A DNA stretch of 45,812 nucleotides from Bacillota bacterium. GTDB taxonomy: Bacteria > Bacillota > Limnochordia > Darwinibacteriales > DTU012. The notes under the pieces are model-generated. The model made no database searches and was not told the DNA's origin. It saw only the letters and a program-made list of their open reading frames with translations. The translations under genes were made by a program, and so were the position numbers. The stretch is taken from positions 1 to 45,812 of the forward strand of contig JAAYNP010000100.1 in the NCBI GenBank assembly GCA_012520795.1, in the 5' to 3' direction. Of this stretch, positions 10,776 through 11,433 are shown one piece after another (within the stretch, counting starts at the first letter, position 1; each line of letters starts with the position of its first letter).

Positions 10776-10807
10776 TAAGACTATCGCTTCTATAGCGATA
10801 GTCTTTT
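10776..10807 (+). terminator. Intrinsic terminator of the glycolytic operon
   Basis: AAGACTATCGCT (10777-10788) pairs perfectly with AGCGATAGTCTT (10794-10805) around a 5-base loop, and the arm runs into TTTT (10804-10807). It ends the cggR-eno operon. The group II intron begins at the very next base, so this hairpin also served as its insertion target. The intron shortens the T tract seen in DNA to four. Confidence 0.85.
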
Positions 10808-11303
10808 GTGTGTCCGGCATGTCTACCGAGCCGATGGGTTGAAAGAAACCCTATCGCCCAACCAGCGGGAAGATAACCAACAGGCAAGGGCGCCACTGGC
10901 AACAGTGGGGTCTGAAGGAAGCCGAGGGGGTGTCTTGGAACATAGCGCAAGCAAACCGAGGTTAGCTTGTAGAGGGGGTAACCCTGCGAAAGATGGGAAA
11001 GCCCGATAGCTGGATAGCTCTGCAGGTTAGGACGGATGGATTCAAGACAAGGCAGGTAGACTTACCCGGGGAAGCTCCTAGTGTCCCTTGGCGCAATTCG
11101 GCCAGTCCTCTGCTGAGTCCAGCTCTGCCCAACAGTTGGTTCAGGGAGATTGGCCTTTTGGACCTAACGAAGTACAGTGTTGGTATTGTGTCGCAGTTCT
11201 ATGAATGGCGGTAGATTCTTCAGGAGCGGTGTACGCGGCCCGTACGCACCGTTCTGTGAGAGGAAAGCCGCTAGGCTGATCACCTAGCGGCTGCCTACTC
11301 GAT
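10808..11303 (+). mobile_element. Group II intron, class C-like, without an encoded reverse transcriptase
   Basis: About 496 bases with no plausible protein. The 5' end GTGTGTCCGGCATG closely matches the start of class C introns such as that of Oceanobacillus iheyensis (from memory). The internal motifs GGTCTGAAGGAAGC and TTACCCGGGGA match domain I/III landmarks. A domain V-like hairpin (11224-11254) pairs GAGCGGTG with CACCGTTC, keeps the AGC catalytic triad and has a CG bulge. A domain VI-like hairpin follows (AGCCGCTAGG with CCTAGCGGCT), and the 3' end is CCTACTCGAT. Class C introns insert directly behind intrinsic terminators, exactly as here. The maturase gene that would sit in domain IV is absent, so mobility would need a protein in trans. 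Ends are assigned by analogy and may shift by a few bases. Confidence 0.85.
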
Positions 11304-11356: not shown

Positions 11357-11380
11357 TGTAATTAACCGTAAACGTTTACG
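11357..11380 (+). promoter_or_regulatory. LacI-family operator with possible -10 box
   Basis: CGTAAACGTTTACG (11367-11380) is a perfect 14-base palindrome with the central CG and flanking AA/TT typical of LacI/GalR operators. TGTAAT (11357-11362) just before it could be a -10 box, which would put the operator over the transcription start, but the best upstream -35 (TTGTTA at 11337) is only 14 bases away. The site lies 53 bases before the LacI-family gene and at the head of the sugar-uptake locus, so autoregulation plus control of the locus is the likely role. Confidence 0.75.
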
Positions 11381-11433
11381 TGTTAAGTTTCCCAGTACAG
11401 TGTAAAAGTGTAAAGGAAAAGGAGAATAAAGCT

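Follow-up and report, generated by a model that had tools for sequence, protein, structure and literature searches.

The window analysed here, 45,812 nucleotides of a Bacillota genome (contig JAAYNP010000100.1), carries at 10808-11303 an ordinary class C (IIC) group II intron of a well-known kind. We regard it as very probable that this element is a lineage-specific insertion at the eno terminator whose ORF was lost, probably in place, and which is beginning to decay, with splicing by means of a maturase in trans still possible. By combining covariance-model searches, comparative folding and empty orthologous sites with a survey of sister copies, we trace how the intron came to lie within the T-tract of this terminator and what has since become of its reverse transcriptase (RT) gene.

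Results

Identity and boundaries of the intron

Using cmscan, two Rfam models match the element above their gathering thresholds: RF02001 (group-II-D1D4-3) at 10893-11061 with 59.8 bits (GA 32, E 1.3e-9) and RF00029 (Intron_gpII) at 11222-11303 with 41.9 bits (GA 40, E 5.3e-5). A related intron with an intact RT, L089 from a Negativicutes MAG, reaches 76.2 bits with RF02001 and stays below the gathering score of RF00029; against this reference, the copy in the window lies in the score range of its relatives. BLAST against 100 genomes gave matches to the segment in 45, the host counted. Many of the matches outside the host have base 1 of the element as their start or base 496 as their end; the boundaries drawn in an earlier, sequence-only reading are therefore exact. 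Alignments of both ends show the conserved intron termini, GTGYG at the 5' end and AY at the 3' end. Domain V with its catalytic triad together with domain VI (RF00029, covarying pairs) marks a group II intron, and insertion directly 3' of intrinsic terminators, seen in empty sites and in the hairpins of relatives' flanks, marks class C. The sequence-only reading had proposed a class C intron behind eno and a covariance-model search for its domains; both Rfam matches and the terminator target uphold the assignment, with D1-D4 and D5-D6 both recovered.

Table 1. Features of the eno intron and its insertion site.
Feature	Positions	Strand	Basis
eno intrinsic terminator stem-loop	10777-10805	+	terminator scan, 12-pair stem; intact in three congeners
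Putative IBS1, TCTTTT, 5' exon sequence for EBS1	10802-10807	+	6/6 pairs with EBS1, covariation across relatives
Whole class C (IIC) group II intron, deletion derivative	10808-11303	+	Rfam, relatives' match ends, empty sites
D1-D4 core seen by RF02001	10893-11061	+	59.8 bits; comparative fold with compensatory pairs
Putative EBS1 loop, GAAAGA	10988-10993	+	ranked first among 567 window/offset combinations for covarying with IBS1 (z 4.7)
In-frame RT/maturase C-terminus remnant, 41 codons + stop	11089-11214	+	aligns to L089 RT end
Domain V, AGC triad 11225-11227	11223-11255	+	RF00029; every pair present, relatives showing compensatory changes
Domain VI, bulged A 11297, 7 nt before 3' end	11257-11301	+	comparative fold, compensatory pairs

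Insertion into the eno terminator

The intron splits the eno T-tract after its fourth T (10804-10807), the terminator stem ending two bases before the insertion. In three congeners (G001, G003 and G004) the orthologous site is empty and the T-tract continuous; the window flanks, once rejoined, align across the junction with all three sites, and the order eno, terminator, lacI-family gene is the same throughout. It follows that the 496 bases were inserted in the host lineage alone among those sampled. Relatives and sister copies likewise adjoin hairpins: 28 of 36 distinct 5' flanks carry one that exceeds shuffles at p<=0.01, with a median energy of -20.7 against -9.6 kcal/mol in shuffles that preserve base composition only. 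Thus the terminator scan and the empty sites confirm an intron start at the base after TTTT, and the flanks bear out that similar sequences sit next to other terminators, both as the sequence-only reading had it. Intrinsic terminators are the target of class C introns (PMC4424553; PMC8919778). A promoter scan around lacI found none and was uninformative. Upstream of the lacI-family gene, a LacI-type palindrome (GTAAACGTTTAC, 11360-11390) is kept in the three congeners and likely serves autoregulation of that gene from a site downstream of the intron.

A variable six-base loop in domain I pairs at 6/6 positions with the TCTTTT upstream of the intron. When the loop of each of 15 intron sites is set against the bases upstream of that site, 68 of 90 positions pair, as opposed to 51.8 in shuffles, and 0 of 20,000 shuffles reached the observed pairing. 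The register was picked after inspection of the data, with the scan of 567 combinations (Table 1) as control; we take the loop to be EBS1.

State of the ribozyme

The whole intron, folded as a single sequence, yielded a modest signal (z -2.1), and the comparative fold was preferred. This fold comprises 51 pairs in the 5' part, 24 with compensatory changes, and 29 predicted pairs in D5 and D6, 12 of them with compensatory changes. The window copy forms 50 of the 51 D1-D3 pairs, one D1 pair being broken, and every pair of D5 and D6. The AGC triad and the domain VI-like hairpin noticed at first from the letters are thus both real features, the latter with covarying pairs and a bulged A at the usual group II branch-point position, 7 nt before the 3' end. 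Three G-to-A changes, at 10880, 10953 and 10964, fall in D1-D3 columns that are invariant in 17 relatives, and one of them breaks the D1 pair. The change at 10880 recurs in sister copy C126, and copy C73 retains G at 10953 and 10964; the relatives depart from conserved columns equally often or more than the window copy. The ribozyme is thus close to intact, and the G-to-A changes are possible first signs of decay; they may have inactivated it already.

A deleted RT gene

All RT sequence upstream of the 41-codon remnant is deleted. A search for full-length relatives encoding a maturase, as proposed from the sequence alone, led to L089, an intron of about 2 kb with an intact 424-aa RT. Since the C-terminal end of this RT can be aligned in frame with 11089-11214, the seemingly ORF-less intron is a deletion derivative, and the possibility of a natively ORF-less intron was ruled out by the same RT C-terminus. 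The earlier label "ORF-less" hence holds insofar as the element has no functional RT, and fails insofar as a remnant of the deleted ORF remains. The L089 RT has the GsI-IIC RT as its nearest solved structure and is recognised by TIGR04416; its Pfam matches are RVT_1 and GIIM, and an endonuclease domain is lacking. An RT without endonuclease, as in class C, is judged here on L089, the window holding the last 41 codons only; family scans of the remnant gave no matches. With up to 3 mismatches allowed, a search of 36 genomes of the order found the deletion junction, AGTGTCCC joined to TTGGCGC, once, in the host copy, and in none of the 35 other genomes, the host assembly being fragmented.

Sister copies and fragmented assemblies

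In the host genome (2.37 Mb in 154 contigs, 99% complete) there are about twelve related intron copies. Those assembled through are all deleted or truncated, with deletions of their own, and most have lost parts of D1. RT residues 88-242 (L089 numbering) were not found among the host intron copies, no RVT_1 was found in the host assembly, an absence weakened by collapsed repeats, and the assemblies of the four congeners likewise contain no intact RT. About seven host copies are cut off at a contig end. The k201-named contigs of G032 include five that break off 198-200 nt into the intron, or about k-1, and no RVT_1 was found in that assembly either; in G001 and G002, many contigs stop about 120-126 nt into the intron. 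We do not accept a genome truly without RT, since contigs of the host MAG and its relatives break inside the intron: intact copies, where identical, are collapsed in assemblies of this kind, leaving only the deleted copies to be assembled from end to end. Intact RT-bearing copies could therefore be invisible in the host assembly.

Two host copies at different terminators, in C74 (L009, G000:C74:21352-21376) and C98 (L064, G000:C98:696-720), have one identical D1 deletion junction, CTTGGAA joined to ATAGCTGGATAG, that removes the EBS1 loop. An RT-core deletion junction is common to C98 and C73. For the C98/C74 junction, gene conversion between copies, recurrent deletion at short repeats, trans-mobilisation and chimeric assembly all remain as explanations. 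The two shared junctions, the first at two terminators, are the ground for a further reading that we consider improbable, namely that RT-dead copies, some with damaged D1, still spread in trans to new terminators. The host copies also fall into two subfamilies (L006, L008, L009 and L016; L001, L007, L010 and L015), one with ACTGAGCC and G before the 5' splice site, the other having C or T in that place and ACCGAGCC (or ACCGAGTC); this split suggests two masters that differ in EBS1.

Distribution beyond the host

The nearest non-host BLAST matches, 92-95% identical, are in G013 and G032 of another family of the order, as compared with 83% for a congener copy. Higher identity in another family than in a congener suggests horizontal movement of the intron; MAG binning errors could instead account for the near-identity. 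No relative was confirmed in the viral contigs searched, and plasmids yielded no more than 93 bases of D1, present in four plasmids of marine Gammaproteobacteria. Two further loci were observed. L092 (2973-4776; G045, JAAZLZ010000176.1) contains a twintron-like nest, in which the RT gene of a class C intron is interrupted by another group II intron that is of D1D4-2 type and encodes a 437-aa RT itself. At L090 (JAKOVF010000247.1), in a MAG labelled Chloroflexota, an RT end 84% identical to the RT family of this intron lies at a contig end, through either horizontal transfer or mis-binning.

Discussion

The empty sites of the congeners record the insertion itself, and its mechanism we infer from the class of the intron: a retro-intron would have recognised the hairpin and T-tract of the eno terminator through EBS1-IBS1 pairing and integrated behind the fourth T. 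Most of the RT gene was deleted, leaving its last 41 codons. The deletion is attested by the remnant and by the unique junction, and it probably took place at eno, after insertion rather than before. What remains is a near-complete ribozyme, with EBS1 matched to the exon, domain V and a bulged A in domain VI, whose excision from read-through transcripts would restore a seven-U tract. We suggest that such splicing may, most likely, occur only with a maturase from an intact sister copy. As a mobile element the intron is probably dead, its decay beginning.

The splicing step is the sole difference between this account and its strongest rival, to which we give somewhat less than an even chance: that the intron is a dead relic, neither splicing nor mobile, and inert in the transcript leader or intergenic space. 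The three changes at invariant columns, with their broken D1 pair, are what such a relic would carry, and most sister copies have lost parts of D1 in a host with no assembled maturase; yet all comparative pairs but one are still formed, and the relatives deviate at conserved columns as often or more.

The lineage-specific insertion with its probably later ORF loss has close counterparts among known introns. Like the bacterial class C introns B.h.I1 and GsI-IIC, the eno intron has a terminator target, a short EBS1-IBS1 pairing and a D1-D6 ribozyme, and its RT family is closest to the GsI-IIC RT, with no endonuclease domain in the intact relative; it differs in having lost most of its RT and in measuring 496 nt against the about 2 kb of L089. 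With TeI3 of Thermosynechococcus elongatus it has in common an ORF deleted from D4, a C-terminal remnant, a retained ribozyme and sister copies. To our knowledge, TeI3 introns are not terminator-targeting IIC introns. In T. elongatus, all 17 ORF-less introns have one junction and multiplied with driver RTs present (PMC2882425), in contrast to the unique junction and unassembled RT found here.

This comparison bears on a second rival, in which the short form is an active, TeI3-like non-autonomous intron that was already deleted on arrival at eno and is driven by a sister RT. Its ribozyme is almost intact with EBS1 matching the exon at 6/6 positions, the C98 and C74 copies hint that defective copies may have spread, and repeat collapse may hide intact ones. 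However, a spreading short form should show one ORF-deletion junction at more than one site, as in T. elongatus (PMC2882425), and the 36 genomes of the order contain a single occurrence, with 0/35 outside the host, whose own assembly is fragmented; no RT is assembled in the host, and three invariant positions have changed. Movement of the short form in trans, entertained in the sequence-only reading, is thus not borne out, and we judge this rival to be very unlikely. Least credible of all is that the short copy arose in assembly, by fusion of intron repeats into a chimera: contigs break at intron copies in the host MAG and its relatives, so mis-joins are conceivable, but synteny of eno and lacI across the intron agrees with three congeners and the ORF junction occurs in no other copy.

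A third parallel for the lineage-specific insertion that lost its ORF is C.te.I1 of Clostridium tetani, a group II intron that lacks an intron-encoded protein (IEP), its genome likewise showing no RT. Bacterial ORF-less introns are rare and nearly always occur alongside related IEP-bearing introns; C.te.I1, which self-splices robustly in vitro, is the sole known case without a related IEP in its sequenced genome (PMC4424553). The host studied here differs in its abundant sister-copy RT fragments and fragmented assembly. Our findings thus carry a warning that introns without a maturase in a genome can be an assembly artefact, since intact copies that are identical become collapsed and go missing from MAGs, and only deleted copies are read through. 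By joining exact insertion and empty sites with EBS1/IBS1 covariation and ORF loss, the eno intron illustrates cleanly what becomes of an intron that targets terminators.
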